From a virus, in the IMG/VR virus record IMGVR_UViG_3300021963_003854, positions 1 to 33,748 of that record: a DNA stretch of 33,748 nt; one strand, written 5' to 3'. The notes beneath the pieces are model-generated. The model had not been told where the DNA came from and made no database searches. It worked only from the letters and a program-made list of their open reading frames with translations. The position numbers were made by a program, and so were the translations under genes. This document shows, in pieces, positions 8,083-32,850 of this stretch; the stretch's first letter is position 1; every line of letters starts with the position of its first letter.

Positions 8083-9258
8083 GTGTCAAAGCAATTAGCA
8101 ATCGGTTGGAATAGCAATGCACCTTGGGCTGCAACTGGTTATGGAACTCAAACAGCACAAGTAACTCAGCGACTAAAAGAACTGGGTCACAATGTAGCGA
8201 TCTTTAATAACTACGGTCTAGAGGGAAGCAACACAGACTGGAACGGAATGCCCGTTTATCAACGTGGCGCAGACCTCTACTCAAATGACGTAGTACCTGC
8301 TCACATGCACGATTGGACTTCACGCCACCCTAAACAGGGTCACATTCTTTTTACTCTTTATGACGTATGGGTATTTAAAGGCCCTAGATGGGCTGACTGG
8401 AATGTTGCTAGTTGGGTTCCCATTGACCACATCCCTGCACCGCCAGAAGTAACCAAGTGGTTGCGACAAGATTTTGTAACTCCTATTGCTATGAGCCAGT
8501 ACGGGCAAACAATGATTGAGAACGTAGGCATTGAATCCCTTTATGTGCCACACGGCATCGAGTCAGTCTTTAAGCCAATGAAACGCCATAAGGGAACTAC
8601 CGGCAGAGATTACATTGGAGTTGGCGAGGACAAGTTTGTTGTCGGTATGAACGCAGCCAACAAAGGCGTAAGCCCTAACCGCAAAGCATTTGGTGAGAAC
8701 ATCTTGGCGTTCTCTATGTTTGCTCAGATGCACGATGACGTAGTTCTTTATCTGCACACAGATCAGATGGGCGCACTAGGTGGAATCAAACTGATGCAGT
8801 TGCTTCAATCCTGTGGAGTGCCAGAGGACAAGTTTAAGTTCGTTGATCCTTACGTTTACCGCACCGGGATTGACCAGCAGACTCTAGCCACGATCTATAC
8901 GGCGATGGATGTTCTGCTTGCCACTTCATACGGCGAGGGCTTTGGTATTCCTACTGTCGAAGCGCAAGCCTGTGGCACACCTGTAATCATTAGCGACTTT
9001 GCAGCTTCAACGGAGCTACTAGGTGACGGCTGGCTAATTGACGGCCAACCGCTTTGGGATGCACCGCAATCTAGTTGGTTCCACATGCCTAGCGTTCCTG
9101 CAATCGTGGATGCCCTAGAGCAGGCGTATCAGCGTGGTCGTGGCAGATCAGAAAAGGCACAAGAGTTTGCCAAGGCGTATAACGCCGATACCGTGTTTGA
9201 GGAGCATTGGAAGCCTGCACTAAAGGTGCTGGAAGCCAAAGCCCTAGAACGGATGTAG
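8083..9258 (+). CDS. Glycosyltransferase, GT-B fold, family 4-like
   Basis: A 391-aa protein starting at GTG 8083 behind AAAGGA. N-terminal half: 'GWNSNAPWAATGYGTQTA...RLKELGHNV', the typical GT-B opening with a Gly-rich acceptor-side loop. C-terminal half: 'VGMNAANKG', then 'MDVLLATSYGEGFGIPTVEAQACGTPVI', containing the E-x7-E motif that binds the nucleotide-sugar donor in GT4-type retaining enzymes. It probably transfers a sugar to a phage or host surface acceptor in the cytoplasm. First of four sugar genes spaced by -4 to +3 nt, downstream of a strong terminator, so a separate promoter between 8021 and 8070 is expected. Confidence 0.85.
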   Translation: MSKQLAIGWNSNAPWAATGYGTQTAQVTQRLKELGHNVAIFNNYGLEGSNTDWNGMPVYQRGADLYSNDVVPAHMHDWTSRHPKQGHILFTLYDVWVFKGPRWADWNVASWVPIDHIPAPPEVTKWLRQDFVTPIAMSQYGQTMIENVGIESLYVPHGIESVFKPMKRHKGTTGRDYIGVGEDKFVVGMNAANKGVSPNRKAFGENILAFSMFAQMHDDVVLYLHTDQMGALGGIKLMQLLQSCGVPEDKFKFVDPYVYRTGIDQQTLATIYTAMDVLLATSYGEGFGIPTVEAQACGTPVIISDFAASTELLGDGWLIDGQPLWDAPQSSWFHMPSVPAIVDALEQAYQRGRGRSEKAQEFAKAYNADTVFEEHWKPALKVLEAKALERM

Positions 9259-9261
9259 AGC

Positions 9262-10065
9262 GTGAAAATCGGCTGGTACACACATCACACCGAGAATACG
9301 CAGAGCGTTCTTGTGCGTTCGCCTGTGAGCCAGCAAGGGCTATTCACGGGGCAGTTCGCAGGTGGGGCTGAAATGTCAGACTACGAATACCGCTTGCAAG
9401 CACCTCTAGACTACGAGATTGAGATTGTCACCCCATACACATTCGATACACACGACATACACCAATTCGATTCAGTCATAGTTACGGGTACAGATGCGTT
9501 CACAGATGCGCAGTTATACAGACTGGCTGAGTATGACCCGTTCGTATTTGTGCATCACTTACAAACTCCACGCGCAGGGCTTAATGCTTTGATTCGTGGC
9601 TCTCGCTTATTCGTAACCCATACCCCGGCGCACATGCGCAGAGAATTGGCTTGGAGTAAGCCACGCAAGACTGCGCAGGTTCTAAGTTATTTCGACACGA
9701 GCAAGTGTCACGATCACATGGACAAACAACCTTACGCATTGTGGGCTGCTAGGAATCACCCCTTAAAAGGTCAGCTACGCGCTCACGCTTGGGCAGCTCA
9801 GGCAGGCTACGAGTTCAAAGCTCTTACAGATGTACCGCGTGAACAAGTGCTAGATGCAATGGCAAGGGTGGAATGGTTTGTGCATTTGCCGTTAGCCTTT
9901 GAGTCAGAATGTCGCGCAGTAATGGAAGCGGTGCTTTCAGGTTGCAGGATTCACACGAACGAGAACGTAGGAATTACTAGCGTTGAAGATTGGCACGATG
10001 CAGATGCATTGCGCCACATGGTAGATAAGGCAGGCGATACATTTTGGAAACTGGTGCAGCAATGA
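9262..10065 (+). CDS. Putative glycosyltransferase (GT-B-like, divergent)
   Basis: A 267-aa protein starting at GTG 9262, 3 nt after the previous stop. The start 'MKIGWYTHHTENT' followed by 'GGAEMSDYEYRLQAP' resembles the N-terminal Rossmann half of GT-B enzymes; 'FDSVIVTGTDAF' and 'FVTHTPAHMRREL' continue it. The C-terminal part, 'VEWFVHLPLAFESECRAVMEA' and 'VLSGCRIHTNENVG', is the degenerate donor-binding half, where E...E spacing is retained. It is shorter than usual (about 350 residues). Next gene overlaps by ATGA. Confidence 0.65.
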   Translation: MKIGWYTHHTENTQSVLVRSPVSQQGLFTGQFAGGAEMSDYEYRLQAPLDYEIEIVTPYTFDTHDIHQFDSVIVTGTDAFTDAQLYRLAEYDPFVFVHHLQTPRAGLNALIRGSRLFVTHTPAHMRRELAWSKPRKTAQVLSYFDTSKCHDHMDKQPYALWAARNHPLKGQLRAHAWAAQAGYEFKALTDVPREQVLDAMARVEWFVHLPLAFESECRAVMEAVLSGCRIHTNENVGITSVEDWHDADALRHMVDKAGDTFWKLVQQ

Positions 10066-10736
10066 GAATGCTTACAATCATTCCGACAAGAGGGCGCAAC
10101 GATAACGCCATTAGATTATTTGAAGCCATTAACGCAACGGCAGACTTTACAGAAGTGGTCTTTGCCATAGATGCAGATGATGTTAAAACCTACAATGGCT
10201 TGATGGCAGAAACTGCTGGACTAGATAACGTCAAGGTCTGCATTGCCAACCGTATGGGAATGAACGGCACTCTTAATCATTGGGCTTTATGGTTCTCACC
10301 TGACTATGACTACATCTGTTTTATGGGTGATGACCACCTACCGCGCACAGGTGGTTGGGACACGAAACTTGCAGAAGCTATTGGCACAGAGCCGGGCATT
10401 GCTTACGGAAACGATTTACTGCAAGGCGAGAATTTGCCAACTGCCGTAGTAATGTCTAGCAAGATCATTAGGGCTACTGGCTTTATGTCACCGCCAGCCT
10501 TAAAGCACTTGTTCCTAGATAACTACTGGCTTGCAATGGGTCACGCTTTAGAGAATGTGAACTATTTGCCAGATGTAGTAATTGAACACATGCACTACAC
10601 AAACGGCAAGGCAGCCCATGACGATAGATACGCAGCCGTAAATAACCCTGAAATGCACAACGGCGATCAGGCTATCTTTGCTGAATACCTAGCCACAGAA
10701 TTTAGTAATGACGTTGAGAACGTAAAGGCTTGGTAA
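10062..10736 (+). CDS. Putative glycosyltransferase, GT-A fold (family 2-like)
   Basis: A 224-aa protein. 'MLTIIPTRGRNDNAIRLFEAI' is the classic GT-A nucleotide-binding opening, followed by 'VVFAIDADD', 'NHWALWF' and 'YDYICFMGDDHLPRTGGWDTKL', where GDDH takes the place of the DxD metal/donor motif. Later 'ATGFMSPPALKHLFLDNYW' fits the acceptor part. ATG 10062 is chosen because it overlaps the upstream stop as ATGA and begins the beta strand. Acceptor and sugar are not known. Confidence 0.72.
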   Translation: MRMLTIIPTRGRNDNAIRLFEAINATADFTEVVFAIDADDVKTYNGLMAETAGLDNVKVCIANRMGMNGTLNHWALWFSPDYDYICFMGDDHLPRTGGWDTKLAEAIGTEPGIAYGNDLLQGENLPTAVVMSSKIIRATGFMSPPALKHLFLDNYWLAMGHALENVNYLPDVVIEHMHYTNGKAAHDDRYAAVNNPEMHNGDQAIFAEYLATEFSNDVENVKAW

Positions 10737-11596
10737 TGAAGATACTGATTACAGGTCACAAAGGATTCGTTGGCCGTAACTTTGTAAAGGCTTTGCCAGA
10801 TAGTGAGATTACAGGCATTGACTTAAAAGACGGCAACGATTGCAGGGACTTCTTTAAGACCAACACAGATCAGTTCGATCTAGTGATTCACCTAGCAGCC
10901 ATCGTTGGTGGTCGCGCAACTATCGAGGGTGAGCCACTATCGGTAGCAACTGACCTGTCAATAGATGCTGAGTTCTTTAATTGGGTGCAGAAAACAAAAC
11001 CCATAAATACGGTTTACTTTTCTAGCTCGGCTGCTTACCCAATAGACCTGCAAACTGGACACCATAGAAACCGACTAGCAGAGCATGACCTAAACCTAGA
11101 TGCGGTTAGGAATCCTGACCTGACTTATGGCTGGGCAAAACTTACTGGGGAATACTTGGCGCAATTTGTAAGTGATTCCAAGGTGTTCGTCTTTAGACCG
11201 TTCTCAGGTTATGGATCAGATCAAGATGCTGATTATCCGTTTCCTAGTTTTATTGACCGCGCTCTAGCCAAGGCAGACCCGTTTGACATTTGGGGCGATG
11301 GCGAGCAGGTGCGTGACTTCATCCACATTGAGGACATAGTTCAGGCTGTTCTCTGGCACGTTCAGACTGGGTACACAGGCACGTTCAATCTATGCTCAGG
11401 CTTTGCCACTAGCTTTAATGACCTAGCAGAAATGGTCTGCGAGGAAGCAGGCTACAAGCCCGTGTTTAATCACATACGTTCAGCACCTACTGGGGTTATG
11501 TATCGCGTTGGTGATTCGCATTTATCGCACCAGTATTTCATTCCGCAGATTACTTTGCGTGAGGGAATTCGTAGGGCATTGGCAGAACGCAAGTAG
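10736..11596 (+). CDS. NAD(P)-dependent sugar-nucleotide epimerase/dehydratase (extended SDR)
   Basis: A 286-aa protein with the Rossmann motif G-x2-G-x2-G at the N-terminus (TGHKGFVG, G7/G10/G13), 'VIHLAAIVGG', 'VYFSSSAAYP' with the catalytic Ser, and Y131-x3-K135 in 'LTYGWAKLTGE'; 'VFRPFSGYG', 'IWGDGEQVRDFIHIEDIV' and 'GTFNLCSG' complete the pattern. It resembles GDP-L-fucose synthase/UDP-glucose 4-epimerase-type enzymes and probably makes the donor used by the three transferases upstream. Start ATG 10736 overlaps the preceding TAA. Confidence 0.85.
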   Translation: MKILITGHKGFVGRNFVKALPDSEITGIDLKDGNDCRDFFKTNTDQFDLVIHLAAIVGGRATIEGEPLSVATDLSIDAEFFNWVQKTKPINTVYFSSSAAYPIDLQTGHHRNRLAEHDLNLDAVRNPDLTYGWAKLTGEYLAQFVSDSKVFVFRPFSGYGSDQDADYPFPSFIDRALAKADPFDIWGDGEQVRDFIHIEDIVQAVLWHVQTGYTGTFNLCSGFATSFNDLAEMVCEEAGYKPVFNHIRSAPTGVMYRVGDSHLSHQYFIPQITLREGIRRALAERK

Positions 11597-19380: not shown

Positions 19381-19623
19381 TTGAAGCGCAAGCAAGTCAA
19401 AGACATAATTACTCGCATGGTTGCAGTTGTTGTTGCATCCGTTATGGGAACAATCGGTGCTGGTTCTATCATCGGCGTTGAGTTGTGGAAGTCAGCAAGT
19501 ATGGCTGCAATTCTGGGTGTGGCTATCGTGCTTGAGGGTCTAGCTCGTGCCTACATCACAGACGGCAAACTTAGCGAAGATGAAATTAACGATTCATTCG
19601 GTAAGGCCAACGGCAAAAAATAA
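19381..19623 (+). CDS. Two-span membrane protein, holin candidate
   Basis: An 80-aa protein starting at TTG 19381 behind GGAGT. Residues about 12-34 and 38-57 are hydrophobic spans, with a basic N-terminus (KRKQVKD) and a charged C-terminus ending GKANGKK. Size, topology and place two genes upstream of the M23 endolysin fit a holin, which would form the hole that releases an endolysin with no signal peptide. Two other small membrane proteins lie in the same cassette, so which one is the holin cannot be decided here. Confidence 0.62.
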   Translation: MKRKQVKDIITRMVAVVVASVMGTIGAGSIIGVELWKSASMAAILGVAIVLEGLARAYITDGKLSEDEINDSFGKANGKK

Positions 19624-20724
19624 ATGAAGCGCATCAGGGTTGCCCTAACTGCGCTACTTGTCGGAGCATTTATGTTTGCAACACCTGCTAAGGCAGATGT
19701 TGTTTGTAACACTTACACCTATACCGGGCATGATGACACGGCTTATCCTGCCAACCTGCCGTTCACGCTAAAGCTAGGACAGACGGAATACGAGAACGTC
19801 TTTGTGACCACAAACGGCACTCTTACCTTTGGCAATCCTGATGCAACATTTCACGATTACCCACAGACCCCATCTTTGTCAGTTGCAGGTTATGACTGGG
19901 TGACATTTGGCGAGGGTGCTTATGTTTCCTTTGGCTCAACCGCTAACACGTTATGCGTTGAATGGAGTCTGCGCCCATTTCCACAGTTCACAGGTGATCT
20001 AACTCAGATACGTCTAGTGATTAACAAGTACCCTAATGGGACTTGGCATGGCGAGGTTACAACCTTTGGCTGGTTGCCTGACAATTTACGGCGCGGTATT
20101 CGCTACGAGCAGGGCGCACCTGTTGTGACTATTGAGGGCGCATTCGATGTTGGTAATGGTGGCGTTCCTGTTGAGGTAGAACCTGCACCTGCTCCAAGCT
20201 CATTTGTTGATCCTGTTGTTATACCTACGCCAATACCTAGCCAGACTCCAGAGCCTGAACCGACTGCAAGTGTTGTACCAACTCTGAACCCAGAGCCAAC
20301 GCCAATAGTTGAGCCTACGCAAACTGCATCACCAGAGCCAACGCCGACAGATACGCCAACGCCAACGCTAGAACCCATAATCGAAGCCACACAAGCACCA
20401 GAGCCTACACCTATTCCCGTAGTTGTGCCTGAACCTGAACCTAGCCCTAGCCCCTCTGAGATTGCTTCTGTGCCTGTCGTAGAGCCATCACCAACAGCAT
20501 CAGATTTAGCACCAGATTTAGTGCCAACAGAACCTGCACAAGTTGTCACTCTAGAAGCCCCTAGCGCATTGGCAATCATCCCCGGCATCACCGCAGTCTT
20601 TGAAGCTGCGGAAGCCTTTATGAACATCGGAAGCGACATGACAGATGAGCAACGCGAAGAATCGCAGTCTGTTGTTGTGGCTGCCGTGATCGTTGGACAA
20701 CTAGCAATAAGGAAAATGAAATGA
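19624..20724 (+). CDS. Secreted, Pro/Thr-rich stalk protein of the lysis cassette
   Basis: A 366-aa protein. A Sec signal peptide (basic 'KRIR', hydrophobic core, cleavage near 'PAKA-DV', residue 24) leads into a beta-rich globular domain of about 150 residues with 'NVFVTTNGTLTFGNPDATF', Cys pairs and 'IRYEQGAPVVTIEGAF', reminiscent of NIDO/PA14-like extracellular modules. Residues about 180-310 are a low-complexity stalk of P, T, E and V such as 'EPEPTASVVPTLNPEPTP'. The last 25 residues have a short hydrophobic stretch ('VVVAAVIVGQLAI') and a basic end 'RKMK', like a C-terminal membrane anchor. Role is unknown: wall-spanning lysis aid, surface exclusion or decoy. It overlaps the next gene by ATGA. 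Confidence 0.6.
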   Translation: MKRIRVALTALLVGAFMFATPAKADVVCNTYTYTGHDDTAYPANLPFTLKLGQTEYENVFVTTNGTLTFGNPDATFHDYPQTPSLSVAGYDWVTFGEGAYVSFGSTANTLCVEWSLRPFPQFTGDLTQIRLVINKYPNGTWHGEVTTFGWLPDNLRRGIRYEQGAPVVTIEGAFDVGNGGVPVEVEPAPAPSSFVDPVVIPTPIPSQTPEPEPTASVVPTLNPEPTPIVEPTQTASPEPTPTDTPTPTLEPIIEATQAPEPTPIPVVVPEPEPSPSPSEIASVPVVEPSPTASDLAPDLVPTEPAQVVTLEAPSALAIIPGITAVFEAAEAFMNIGSDMTDEQREESQSVVVAAVIVGQLAIRKMK

Positions 20725-20900
20725 AATGGTTAAAGACCTACCTGCGTGAAGTAACTGGTGAAACGTGGACATTCGTAGGTCTACTAACTGCCTATTTCAC
20801 GTTAGACGGATCAGCTAAAAAGGTGACAGGTTTGCTTATCCTAATTGGGGCATTTGTCTGGCTGGTAACATTGCCTTTAAGACAAGATGATGAGGATTAA
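20721..20900 (+). CDS. Second small membrane protein of the lysis cassette
   Basis: A 59-aa protein whose ATG overlaps the previous stop (ATGA). Hydrophobic spans are at about residues 17-29 ('TFVGLLTAYFTL') and 35-51 ('VTGLLILIGAFVWLVTLPL'), with a basic N-terminus and acidic end 'RQDDED'. It sits directly before the endolysin, the classic holin or antiholin position. Confidence 0.6.
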   Translation: MKWLKTYLREVTGETWTFVGLLTAYFTLDGSAKKVTGLLILIGAFVWLVTLPLRQDDED

Positions 20901-20905
20901 ATCAA

Positions 20906-21295
20906 ATGGGCTTACCAATTAAGGGTGGAAAGATTACCACCGCATACGGCAAAAAAGGCAAGATGTGGTCAAAGGGTTATCACACAGGAGTTGATTTTGC
21001 TTGCAAAGTTGGAACTGACATTGTTGCAGTTGCAGATGGCAAGATTGAGAACGCATCTTGGGGTTCTGCCTACGGCACTCAGTTGATACAAAAAGTTGAG
21101 GGTGGCTGGGTAATCTATGCACACCTTTCAAAGGCTCTTGTTAAGCCCGGCGATAAAGTTGTTAAAGGTCAGCACATTGCTGAATCAGGCAATACAGGTA
21201 ACAGTTCTGGGCCACATTTACACTTCGAGCAGAGGTCAAATATTCGCTGGTCAGCAGGCAAGGACATTGACCCAGCTGCGATCCTAGCGAAGTAA
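20906..21295 (+). CDS. Endolysin: M23 (LytM-type) zinc metallopeptidase
   Basis: A 129-aa protein that is little more than the catalytic domain. M23 motifs are 'YHTGVDFACKVGTDIVAVADG' (H and D zinc ligands; first residues cited only in part), 'VIYAHLSKALVKPGDKV' and the H-x-H of 'GNSSGPHLHFEQ'. It should cut peptide cross-links in peptidoglycan. No signal peptide and no wall-binding domain is present, so export depends on a holin. It is the only peptidoglycan hydrolase I see in the genome. Stop and next start overlap as TAATG. Confidence 0.9.
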   Translation: MGLPIKGGKITTAYGKKGKMWSKGYHTGVDFACKVGTDIVAVADGKIENASWGSAYGTQLIQKVEGGWVIYAHLSKALVKPGDKVVKGQHIAESGNTGNSSGPHLHFEQRSNIRWSAGKDIDPAAILAK

Positions 21296-21753
21296 TGCGT
21301 AGGCGAATAGCAACCTGCGCTATCGCTTTATCTCTAGTCTTTACATCACAGGTTCACGCAGAAGCCACGCAGCCTTACGTTGTTGCAACGGCTAAAAAAT
21401 CTGGCATCTGCAAAGTCACATCTGACCAAAGTGTTACTGGCAAGTGGCAGACGTTTAAGAACTGTAATCCATTTGTTCTAGGTGGTGAGCGTTCCTTGTT
21501 CTTTGTTCAGCTACACATCATGTGCGAGAAGCGACCTAAGTATGTCAAGTTGCGTTTAGCCCGGTTGCATCCTGACGGCACAAAAGATACAACAGGCACA
21601 ACCACGTTCTCATTTACCAAAGAAACAACACGCGACTGGCAAGGCACTATGTGGTGGGAATCGAAAACCAAGTACCCAATCGTGGCGCAGTATAAAGTGG
21701 TAGGCGGTAAGTGTTATTCAGATGAGCGACAATTTAAGTGGTGGCAACCGTAA
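21295..21753 (+). CDS. Secreted protein of unknown function, lysis cassette
   Basis: A 152-aa protein. The signal peptide is clear: 'MRRRIATCAIALSLVF' and cleavage near 'VHA-EA' at residue 23. The mature part has Cys residues near 'SGICKVT', 'FKNCNPF', 'HIMCEKR' and 'GKCYSDE', enough for two disulfides, and is predicted beta-rich. No enzymatic motif is recognised. Its position after the endolysin, in overlap with both neighbours, suggests a job outside the membrane in lysis or in blocking a second infection. Confidence 0.6.
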   Translation: MRRRIATCAIALSLVFTSQVHAEATQPYVVATAKKSGICKVTSDQSVTGKWQTFKNCNPFVLGGERSLFFVQLHIMCEKRPKYVKLRLARLHPDGTKDTTGTTTFSFTKETTRDWQGTMWWESKTKYPIVAQYKVVGGKCYSDERQFKWWQP

Positions 21754-22031
21754 TGGGACTAATTGAACTAGGGCAATACGCAGGCGCACTTTCAGCTATT
21801 GCATTACTTGCAGGCATGGCTATCAAGTGGGGAATCGTTAAGCCTATTAAGGCTTACATAGATCAGGCTACTTACCCAATTAGCCCAACTGCCAATGGTG
21901 GCAAGTCGCTCCCAGACATAGCGCACACAGTAAACCGAATTGAAGCCAGCGTTAAAGAACTTGATTATCGCCTTAACTCGATTGAGGAATTAGTTACTAA
22001 ACCGACACGCACCAGAAAAACAACAGCCTGA
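21753..22031 (+). CDS. Single-span membrane protein with coiled coil, holin-like
   Basis: A 92-aa protein whose ATG 21753 overlaps the previous stop. Residues 9-28 ('YAGALSAIALLAGMAIKWGI') form one membrane span; residues about 52-80 form a helix with heptads ('HTVNRIEASVKELDYRLNSI'), and the end is basic (TRTRKTTA). Proteins with one N-terminal span and a coiled coil are frequent in actinophage lysis cassettes. It could be a pinholin-like protein or an accessory factor. Confidence 0.6.
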   Translation: MGLIELGQYAGALSAIALLAGMAIKWGIVKPIKAYIDQATYPISPTANGGKSLPDIAHTVNRIEASVKELDYRLNSIEELVTKPTRTRKTTA

Positions 22032-24513: not shown

Positions 24514-25608
24514 ATGAGTAAAGCAAAAATAATTATTGGGGATGTTAGAACTGCAATGCAGTCAATCCCAGATCAGTCAATTCAAACCTGCGTAACATCA
24601 CCGCCCTACTGGGGACTGCGTGACTATGGCACTGGTACATGGTCAGGTGGTGACAGTGAATGTAGTCATAAAAGAGATAGCAAGTATTCAGATAAGACAA
24701 TTACTGGTCACAAGAATCCTGCCATTGGCGGTGTGGGTGATGCTATCTATAAAAGCGTTTGTGAACGTTGTGGAGCTACCCGTGAAGATGAGCAACTAGG
24801 TCTAGAGGAAACACCACAGCAGTATGTAGATCAGATGGTTGAAGTCTTTAGGGAAGTCTGGCGCGTACTAAAAGATGACGGAACACTTTGGCTAAACATT
24901 GGTGATAGTTATGCAGGCTCAGGTAAAGGGCCGGCTGGAAACTTAGGCGCGACACATAATGAACGTCACATGGAACATAAGCATTCAGCGATTGTGCCTG
25001 ACGGTCTAAAGCCAAAAGACTTGGTTGGTATTCCTTGGCGTTTAGCTTTTGCATTGCAAGCTGACGGTTGGTATTTAAGGCAGGACATTATCTGGGCTAA
25101 ACCAAATCCAATGCCTGAGTCAGTTACAGACAGATGCACCAAGTCACATGAGTACGTCTTTCTAATGTCTAAGTCACGGCAGTATTTTTATGACCATGAA
25201 GCTATTAAAGAACCTGTTGTGCAAGATTGGGGCAGTCGAGACAGAACCAATGGGAAATACCACAATGAGGGAACCGGATTAACTCCACATTCAGGTTTGA
25301 CCAAGACTTATGAAACTAGAAATAAGCGCGATGTCTGGAACGTTCCCACTAAGCCTTACAAGGGCGCACACTTTGCTGTAATGCCAGAAGCTCTTATTGA
25401 ACCTTGCATACTTGCTGGCTCATCTGTTGGCGATACGGTCTTTGATCCGTTCACTGGTTCTGGGACTGTTGGCATGGTTGCTCTTAGGCACAATAGAAAC
25501 TTTGTAGGTACTGAATTAAATCCAGACTATGCAGACTTAGCTGTTAATCGTATTTACAATGATGCACCATTACTAAATGAAATAGAACAGGAGTTGGCAA
25601 ATGGCTGA
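24514..25608 (+). CDS. Site-specific DNA methyltransferase, SPPY type (beta class)
   Basis: A 364-aa protein. Catalytic motif IV S29-P-P-Y32 ('TSPPYWGLRDYG') lies near the N-terminus and the AdoMet motif 'DPFTGSG' (311-317) near the C-terminus, the beta-class order. SPPY is more usual in N4-cytosine methylases, though N6-adenine cannot be excluded. A zinc-knuckle-like insert, C50-x-H52 ... C83-x2-C86, follows motif IV. No restriction endonuclease is next to it, so it is an orphan, probably masking phage DNA from host restriction. The RHH gene starts inside its 3' end. Confidence 0.9.
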   Translation: MSKAKIIIGDVRTAMQSIPDQSIQTCVTSPPYWGLRDYGTGTWSGGDSECSHKRDSKYSDKTITGHKNPAIGGVGDAIYKSVCERCGATREDEQLGLEETPQQYVDQMVEVFREVWRVLKDDGTLWLNIGDSYAGSGKGPAGNLGATHNERHMEHKHSAIVPDGLKPKDLVGIPWRLAFALQADGWYLRQDIIWAKPNPMPESVTDRCTKSHEYVFLMSKSRQYFYDHEAIKEPVVQDWGSRDRTNGKYHNEGTGLTPHSGLTKTYETRNKRDVWNVPTKPYKGAHFAVMPEALIEPCILAGSSVGDTVFDPFTGSGTVGMVALRHNRNFVGTELNPDYADLAVNRIYNDAPLLNEIEQELANG

Positions 25609-31312: not shown

Positions 31313-31609
31313 ATGAACTGGACAGATACTGTTGGCGTGACGATTCACAATGACCTAGTGCGGTCAGCGTTAAAAAACAAGCCAGAAGCAGACATTGACA
31401 AGCTAGAAGCCAGCATTAAGCGCATGAGCCTAAGCGTAGGCATTACACGCATGGCAATAGCATCAGTCTTAGATGCAGAGATAGAAGCAATGGCTGCCTA
31501 TCGCGTACTGGGTGATTCATCTATCACTAATGAATACCTAGCAGGGATGCAATCAGCAGCTGACTTAGTTAGATACGGCGTACACCTAACGGATGGAATA
31601 AAACTATGA
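31313..31609 (+). CDS. Helical protein of unknown function
   Basis: A 98-aa protein with long helices ('ADIDKLEASIKRMSLSVGIT', 'VLDAEIEAMAAYRVL') and no cysteines. It starts directly after a leaderless-type promoter and overlaps the methyltransferase by ATGA, so the two may be co-expressed. No family recognised. Confidence 0.6.
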   Translation: MNWTDTVGVTIHNDLVRSALKNKPEADIDKLEASIKRMSLSVGITRMAIASVLDAEIEAMAAYRVLGDSSITNEYLAGMQSAADLVRYGVHLTDGIKL

Positions 31610-32850
31610 ACTACGACCTGCGCAATGGTGACTGTGTTGAGATTATGCGTAGCCTGCCAGCAAACAGCGTGGACTCGATTGTTACTGACCCACCGTATGA
31701 GCTTGGCTTTATGGGTAAGTCTTGGGATTCAACTGGTATTGCATACAGCGTAAAGATGTGGGATGAAGCACTTAGAGTCTTAAAGCCCGGCGGTCACTTG
31801 CTTGCCTTTAGTGGATCACGCACTTATCACCGTATGGCTTGCGCCATTGAAGATGCAGGCTTTGAGATACGCGATCAGATTATGTGGGTCTACGGTTCAG
31901 GGTTTCCAAAGTCAATGGATGTAAGCAAGGCAATAGACAAGCAAAGCAATGTTCATGTCGAAGTTATTGCAACTGGTAAAAGTGGCAAAACGGCTATTTG
32001 GAATGAACAAGGCGGTATGGGTAATTTCAACATAACTGCACCGACAACAGACAAAGCAAAGCAATGGGCAGGATGGGGAACAGCACTAAAGCCTGCACAT
32101 GAACCAATAGTCCTAGCTCGTAAGCCCTTGATAGGAACAGTTGCAACTAACGTAATCATTCATGGCACTGGCGCATTGAACATTGACGGGTCAAGGGTTG
32201 GGACTGAAATTCTTGTAAATCAACCGGGTGGCATTCCTAATGGAGCTAATCATTTTGTCAATTCATCGAAAGAATTAAATCGTGATAGACCAGCAATAAC
32301 TGTGCAAGGTCGTTGGCCTGCAAACTTTATACATGATGGTTCAGATGAAGTAGTTGAGTTGTTTCCTGAAACAAAGCCAAGCAAGGCAAATCCTAGAAAC
32401 AATAGTGACTTTAAGTCAGTATCTAAGGGTAAAGAAACAGCGCACACAACACTTGGTCACAACGATAACGGCGGTTCAGCAGCACGATTCTTTTACTGCG
32501 CGAAGGCGAGTAAGAAAGACCGCAATGAAGGACTAGATGGCTTTGCAGAGAAACGCCCTGATGAAAGAAGTGAAACTGGCATGGGTACTTTTACAGAAAA
32601 GGGAGTTGCTAAACAATCAAACCATCACCCAACCGTTAAGCCAATTGATCTAATGCGTTACCTAGTTAAGTTAGTAACACCACCTAACGGAACAGTCTTA
32701 GATCCATTTATGGGTTCAGGCTCAACAGGCAAGGCGGCAGTCTTAGAACACTTTAGTTTTATTGGCATAGACCAAAGCGCAGACTACCTAGAGATTGCAA
32801 CGGCTAGAATCAAACACGCGCAAGAACAGATAGAAGGCCGGTTGTTATGA
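31606..32850 (+). CDS. DNA methyltransferase, DPPY type (N6-adenine/N4-cytosine)
   Basis: A 414-aa protein. Motif IV D28-P-P-Y31 ('VTDPPYELGFMGKSWD') is N-terminal and the AdoMet motif 'LDPFMGSGSTGKAA' starts near residue 365, so this is a beta-type order; DPPY favours adenine-N6 methylation. A long middle region includes 'GRWPANFIHDGSDEVVELFP' and 'ARFFYCAKASKKDRNEGL', common in phage and mobile-element methylases. It is an orphan like the one at 24514 but clearly a different family member. Likely protects against host restriction. Confidence 0.92.
   Translation: MNYDLRNGDCVEIMRSLPANSVDSIVTDPPYELGFMGKSWDSTGIAYSVKMWDEALRVLKPGGHLLAFSGSRTYHRMACAIEDAGFEIRDQIMWVYGSGFPKSMDVSKAIDKQSNVHVEVIATGKSGKTAIWNEQGGMGNFNITAPTTDKAKQWAGWGTALKPAHEPIVLARKPLIGTVATNVIIHGTGALNIDGSRVGTEILVNQPGGIPNGANHFVNSSKELNRDRPAITVQGRWPANFIHDGSDEVVELFPETKPSKANPRNNSDFKSVSKGKETAHTTLGHNDNGGSAARFFYCAKASKKDRNEGLDGFAEKRPDERSETGMGTFTEKGVAKQSNHHPTVKPIDLMRYLVKLVTPPNGTVLDPFMGSGSTGKAAVLEHFSFIGIDQSADYLEIATARIKHAQEQIEGRLL

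Follow-up and report, generated by a model that had tools for sequence, protein, structure and literature searches.

The subject of this analysis is a cassette of six genes, located at positions 19,381 to 22,031 of the viral sequence IMGVR_UViG_3300021963_003854 from IMG/VR (33,748 nucleotides, analyzed at full length and herein referred to as the window). Besides a holin-like gene (hol80) and a gene for an M23 endolysin, the cassette encodes an exported stalked protein (S366), its small membrane partner (m59), a second exported protein, predicted to fold like TNF/C1q (S152), and one further membrane protein (m97). This cassette is conserved in over 200 viral contigs. With a probability of about 0.5, S366 and S152 bind glycans of the host envelope at the lysis stage, aiding lysis or progeny release, and are functionally similar to LysZ of Corynebacterium phages. 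The architecture of the S366/m59/S152 set is well supported, and its function is inferred. An action on the host envelope at lysis is suggested because exported proteins of glycan-binding type are located together with the holin and the endolysin. A first-pass annotation of this region, made from the letters alone, had described a lysis cassette with extra exported proteins that nothing like the usual holin/endolysin set could explain. The lysis assignment was supported by genomic linkage, the genes being located far nearer to holin and endolysin genes than under random placement. The second statement was too strong, as both a holin-like gene and an M23 endolysin gene are present.

Linkage was counted in 31 whole contigs of 9-102 kb, with random placement used as the expectation. 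The m59 gene and a holin-like gene were no more than 3 kb apart in 28 of 28 cases, against 4.6 expected; for m59 and an M23 gene this held in 22 of 28 (4.8 expected), and the M23 gene was found within 3 kb of the S152 gene in 18 of 21 (3.3 expected). All six exceptions to the m59-M23 linkage are large phages, in which the S366-m59 pair stays near the holin gene and the M23 gene lies 21-25 kb away; in these phages S152 is located near M23 in four genomes and near the holin gene in two. Thus, the counts together with the arrangement in large phages show that the S366-m59 pair, or lectin unit, tracks the holin, and that S152 mostly tracks the endolysin. In the relative L081, the lectin unit adjoins genes for an NlpC/P60 enzyme and for another wall-enzyme-like protein, the latter belonging to the same cluster as an aggregation-promoting-factor-type protein of L064 (124 bits).

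S366 consists of a signal peptide (residues 1-24), a head (25-186), a stalk (187-312), a C-terminal module with the motif IGSDMT..ESQ, and a hydrophobic anchor (349-362) followed by RKMK. The stalk is indeed rich in Pro, Thr, and Glu, as first described, with 29% Pro, 13% Thr, and 11% Glu. Its length is 126 residues in the window and up to about 400 residues in relatives. At approximately 0.3 nm per residue, by our own estimate, the 126-residue stalk could reach about 40 nm, and it is strongly supported that the S366 stalk is long enough to bring an exchangeable beta head across the cell wall. Structure prediction, which had been proposed as a check of the head, was made with AlphaFold2. In the model, an all-beta head is predicted with confidence (residues 31-186, block means 84-95), whereas the stalk is disordered and the C-terminus forms a helix; convincing matches of the head to solved structures were not obtained.

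For S366, neither Pfam nor PHROGs gave a family match, and in NCBIfam only a spurious match was found (14 bits against a cut-off of 120). More generally, S366, S152, and m59 do not belong to any known family in these three collections beyond spurious sub-cutoff matches. Their only sequence matches in the Protein Data Bank (PDB) are insignificant or confined to the low-complexity stalk. No tblastn match for the head or the C-terminal module of S366 was found in 50,697 phage records at an E limit of 1. Relatives were found in a viral collection, where a scan with the head identified 13 close relatives and a scan with the alignment of whole S366 identified at least 212, from which 80 were fetched. 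A signal-type N-terminus, a head, and a proline-rich stalk are common to all complete members, as are the motif GADMTPExRExSQ, a hydrophobic stretch, and a basic end. The N- and C-terminal hydrophobic segments, as determined by hydropathy, are both preserved in the 56 complete homologues, without exception, together with at least two Lys/Arg among the last seven residues. The design is thus not due to chance, and the export signals expected from the first reading are retained in all 56. The possible C-terminal membrane anchor is supported by the same hydrophobic and basic ends (56/56), but the hydrophobic core in the window has only about 13 residues and is longer in other members. No bacterial homologues of the C-terminal anchor were found in genome contigs by a shallow pattern scan, so the anchor may still be of host origin. 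Two other assignments were rejected: a nidogen-like head, suspected from the pattern NGTLTFG, had no Pfam support in any of 42 members, and an enzymatic role of S366 was discarded as no catalytic domain above the cut-off was found in any scanned head.

S366 and m59 are each present once, and adjacent to each other, in all 31 whole-contig records. A scan with the m59 alignment yielded 62 loci. At every locus with enough upstream sequence, the preceding gene is of the S366 type and overlaps m59 by 1-4 nt or lies within 21 nt of it; the four loci initially flagged as motif-less have an upstream S366 with the variant IGQDMT or IGDDMT. Additionally, phages with the hol80 family and without the S366 motif encode large exported proteins that end in an m59-like two-helix hairpin (L211, L219, L220, L222, L224, L227, and L238). 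The fused hairpin matched m59 at the profile level (hhalign probability 94, E 9.5e-8). Homology between the fused hairpin and m59 is likely, though not proven, because matches between single sequences are weak and similar composition can make two-helix proteins match. On these comparisons it is strongly supported that m59 is a dedicated membrane partner of S366 and forms one unit with it. The fused lectin-hairpin form was also found in Actinomycetia phage DSL-LC01, a named metagenome-assembled genome, where it is annotated as hypothetical. In the fused-form phages, another conserved membrane protein (LTPEELDARLKFVVGC...FITGTLAGLMISTGRN) is encoded after the holin-like gene (L211:5383-5748, L219:5976-6260, and L220:5352-5729). 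Judged by eye, the putative endolysins beside the fused genes differ, being an M15-like peptidase or a GH25-like muramidase (L219:3839-4666 and L220:5726-6421), so the lectin unit may go with more than one endolysin type.

The heads of S366 vary independently of the remaining cassette. The cassettes of L021 and L016 are nearly the same in m59 (100% identity), the holin (96%), M23 (86%), S152 (89%), and the C-terminus of S366 (94%), whereas their heads, of 164 and 73 amino acids (aa), respectively, are unrelated. Between the window and L011, the heads are 87% identical and the rest of the cassettes are 43-66% identical. By these comparisons, S366 heads are exchangeable modules. Several sibling heads contain recognizable domains. 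PA14 (Pfam) was found in L156, L173, L224, and L227; the SUEL galactose/rhamnose lectin domain (Pfam) in L224 and L222, and just under the cut-off in L089; and the L-type lectin domain in L211 (139.6 bits) and L222 (147.7 bits; cut-off 78.3). L219 has FN3 together with a sub-cutoff match to a C-type lectin. Two proteins carry more than one lectin domain, namely L222 (L-type and SUEL) and L224 (PA14 and SUEL). All recognizable sibling heads, borne on the same anchor or hairpin, are thus of glycan-binding types, and we infer that the head of S366 in the window binds glycans as well.

S152 has a signal-type N-terminus and five Cys residues, four of them in the mature part, in agreement with the initial count of four or more. 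Two disulfides, 39-57 and 77-140, are indicated because the Cys pairs are lost together: residues 39 and 57 are jointly absent in L011 and L014, and residues 77 and 140 in L064 and L081. The AlphaFold2 model of S152 has a mean pLDDT of 83, with 95 of 152 residues at 90 or above. Its top match is the cell-binding domain of the tail fibre of cyanophage A-1(L) (Z 12.3, 125 residues, 5.0 A), followed by the BC2L-C lectin (Z 12.0, 113 residues, 2.5 A) and PLTL (Z about 12); many TNF-family chains rank closely behind. S152 is therefore predicted to be a TNF/C1q-type jelly roll, a Z of 12 supporting the fold class and not the ligand. Identity to BC2L-C, PLTL, and the A-1(L) domain is approximately 10%, and, unlike the TNF-like lectins and the fibre domain, S152 is a free exported protein encoded in a lysis operon. 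Homologues that were virion fibres or lacked signal peptides would have contradicted the first-pass annotation. None of the homologues is annotated as a virion fibre, although S152 does have one family of relatives of about 130 aa without a signal peptide. For this family (c40), hhalign gave a probability of only 3.8% with just two near-identical sequences and 95.6% (E 1.1e-8) with deeper alignments. These relatives are possibly a virion or cytoplasmic form of the same fold, and they adjoin S152 in several phages (L322:6102-6494, L326:5517-5909, L324:5400-5783, L005:6666-7055, and L014:5156-5545).

The 129-aa protein of the cassette matches Peptidase_M23 (PF01551, 5.7e-28, 97.4 bits against a cut-off of 28.7) as well as PHROG endolysins. 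It has no further domain above the cut-off, so the earlier description of a bare M23 peptidase holds, and it is the sole M23 protein in the window; on these matches it is the probable endolysin. The main PHROG match of hol80 is PHROG 26427 (4.3e-25), labelled "nuclease". For an 80-aa two-helix membrane protein this label looks like a mislabel, which would mislead annotation. Like the PHROG 443 holins, which we take to be r1t-like, hol80 is a two-helix membrane protein, and it matches them weakly (E 2e-4). By hydropathy and the family alignment, it qualifies as a small protein with at least two transmembrane helices near an endolysin. The hol80 family is broader than the S366 family, being also found without the S366 motif. 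The C-terminal tail of hol80 is DGKLSxxEI, and segments of the type DGxLTxxE or DGKLSxxE are common to this tail and to the C-terminus of S366 (for example, in L011 and L081). In long S366 members, DGxLTxxE-type segments form repeats resembling EF-hand-like or helical repeats.

Under the preferred reading, the surface-lectin set would be an addition to a cassette of holin and M23 endolysin. Late in infection, S366 would grip envelope glycans from its membrane tether, and S152, probably a trimer, would bind them as an untethered lectin. Once the holin has fired and M23 is cutting peptidoglycan, the lectins would occupy the glycan layer or loosen it, allowing the cell to open fully and sparing progeny from being trapped by host receptors on debris. 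This action would be like that of LysZ, performed by a different protein. LysZ of Corynebacterium phages CL31 and Cog is described, second-hand, as a membrane protein of 177 aa with one helix and N-in C-out topology, whose outside domain is proposed to target lipid-anchored glycans; in an actinobacterium, it promotes lysis and release over and above what holin and endolysin achieve (PMC13056207). By its architecture, S366 is likewise a phage-encoded, membrane-held protein with an outside domain. It differs from LysZ in its signal peptide, its long Pro/Thr/Glu stalk, the exchangeable heads of lectin type, the anchor at the C-terminus, and the obligate hairpin partner. By its predicted topology (hydropathy, with a signal-type N-terminus and a basic C-terminal anchor in 56 of 56 homologues), S366 is not a LysZ. 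Spanins and LysB are also third-step lysis proteins working on outer layers. In contrast to them, the cassette lacks an outer-membrane lipoprotein partner and an esterase domain, and the ectodomain of S366 is probably lectin-like; no lipobox pattern was found in the N-termini of S366 and S152 as read from the sequence.

Several points weigh against a glycan-binding role at lysis. Glycan binding by the window head rests on its siblings because the head itself matches no family or fold: it has no Pfam or PHROG match, and its best PDB fold match (Z 5.1, to beta domains of sugar enzymes) is uninformative. Similarly, a TNF/C1q fold alone does not establish lectin activity of S152. The C-terminal hydrophobic run of S366, about 13 residues, is shorter than a transmembrane helix would normally be, which makes anchoring through m59 plausible; matches between two-helix hairpins can in turn arise from composition. 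The 31 records share ancestry and are not independent lineages, so the linkage counts overstate independence. Finally, coupling to the endolysin is not obligatory, since M23 is 21-25 kb from S366-m59 in six large phages.

The strongest rival, although a rather unlikely one, is superinfection exclusion by receptor masking, in which S366 and S152 occupy receptor glycans and block adsorption of other phages or sister virions. The heads are of lectin type and frequently exchanged, the predicted fold of S152 is nearest to a cell-binding domain of a phage tail fibre, and S152 is homologous to a family without signal peptides, as expected of a decoy copied from a receptor-binding domain. Early expression, or expression from prophages, is usual for exclusion genes. 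The genes studied here are instead located among lysis genes, tracking the holin (28/28) and the endolysin, and a lectin-fused membrane partner is unnecessary for masking. A virion fibre or tail component that merely adjoins lysis genes is very improbable: in small phages the cassette does come after the tail genes and S152 is predicted to resemble tail-fibre domains, but signal-type N-termini and a hydrophobic basic C-terminus were found in all 56 S366 members, the Cys pairs of S152 are lost together, as for disulfides, and the flanking genes in the large phages examined are not tail genes.

Two further rivals are weaker than masking. S366 could be a lysis-timing sensor that reads the surface and signals via m59 to the holin, delaying or triggering lysis, by analogy with the action of T4 RI on holin T. 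In agreement with this, S366-m59 follows the holin rather than the endolysin in large phages, and the membrane partner m59 is obligate. A precedent is T4 RI, an exported antiholin responding to superinfection (PMC11413866), and S366 resembles it in being exported, encoded next to lysis genes, and possibly acting with a membrane partner. T4 RI, however, is small, acts at the membrane surface, and lacks a stalk or lectin head, so a stalk of 130-400 residues with exchangeable lectin-type heads is unlike it, and a contact between m59 and the holin has no supporting evidence. The sensor is thus improbable. The lowest probability was assigned to bridging of cells or particles, in which lectins hold neighboring hosts so that progeny is released beside new targets; we regard it as highly improbable. 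It would fit the presence of several lectin domains on long stalks, the combination of lectin types within single proteins (L222 and L224), and hosts that are probably dilute plankton, but direct evidence is absent and no precedent was found in the literature searched.

The S366 family appears to be undescribed as far as checked, because the fused form in DSL-LC01 is annotated as hypothetical and searches of the PMC literature, which lacks most subscription journals, gave no earlier description of lysis cassettes in which a phage encodes stalked lectins or PA14 proteins. The family is widespread in viral contigs, and S366-m59 with S152 constitutes a concrete gene set. How phages of monoderm bacteria pass through the glycan layer after wall cleavage is poorly known, LysZ being the sole close precedent found. 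A broader proposal, which we hold tentatively and with some doubt, is that aquatic actinobacteriophages build a surface-lectin apparatus of swappable heads, a stalk, a membrane hairpin (as a pair or fused), and a secreted TNF-like lectin, wired to the holin. If true, lysis and release in monoderm actinobacteria would have a general third component, or, alternatively, the apparatus would mask or bridge cell-surface glycans at release. For aquatic actinobacteria that are difficult to grow, the swappable heads offer natural probes of surface glycans.

All six open reading frames of the first-pass annotation were recovered with the same lengths and order, in tandem on the + strand (Table 1). Three of the five junctions overlap (by 4, 1, and 1-16 nt); of the other two, one is seamless and one has a 5-nt gap. 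A better start for m97 is the ATG at 21753, which gives TAATG coupling; m97 is kept beside S152 in small phages.

Table 1. Genes of the lysis cassette in the window and their predicted products.
Gene	Position	Strand	Product
hol80	19381..19623	+	80 aa, TTG start; two-helix membrane protein, holin-like
S366	19624..20724	+	366 aa; exported stalked surface protein
m59	20721..20900	+	59 aa; two-helix membrane protein, obligate S366 partner
M23 endopeptidase	20906..21295	+	129 aa; bare catalytic domain without signal peptide, endolysin
S152	21295..21753	+	152 aa; exported soluble protein, predicted TNF/C1q-like jelly roll
m97	21738..22031	+	97 aa; one-helix membrane protein with charged, probably coiled-coil C-terminus

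Upstream of the cassette, the 33.7-kb record contains terminase, portal, head protease, capsid, glycosyltransferase, and tape-measure genes. The nearest relative of the portal protein is that of Pontimonas phage phiPsal1 (49%), a phage of an aquatic actinobacterium, which makes a host of this kind probable; a search of genomes with the portal for the host gave no match. In phiPsal1 (MG835450), a bare M23 protein, a coiled-coil one-helix protein, and two-helix proteins are likewise encoded in tandem after the tail genes. No relative of S366 or S152 was found among its annotated genes, and neither protein had a tblastn match in it. As in phiPsal1, sugar genes are located in the interval between capsid and tail genes (8083-11596), encoding a glycosyltransferase (PHROG 2170) and a nucleotide-sugar epimerase (PHROG 540). 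These genes could modify virion or host glycans, which would bear on the lectin heads. Additionally, the window, a small phage genome, contains two DNA methyltransferase genes, both of PHROG 67 (24514-25608 and 31606-32850).

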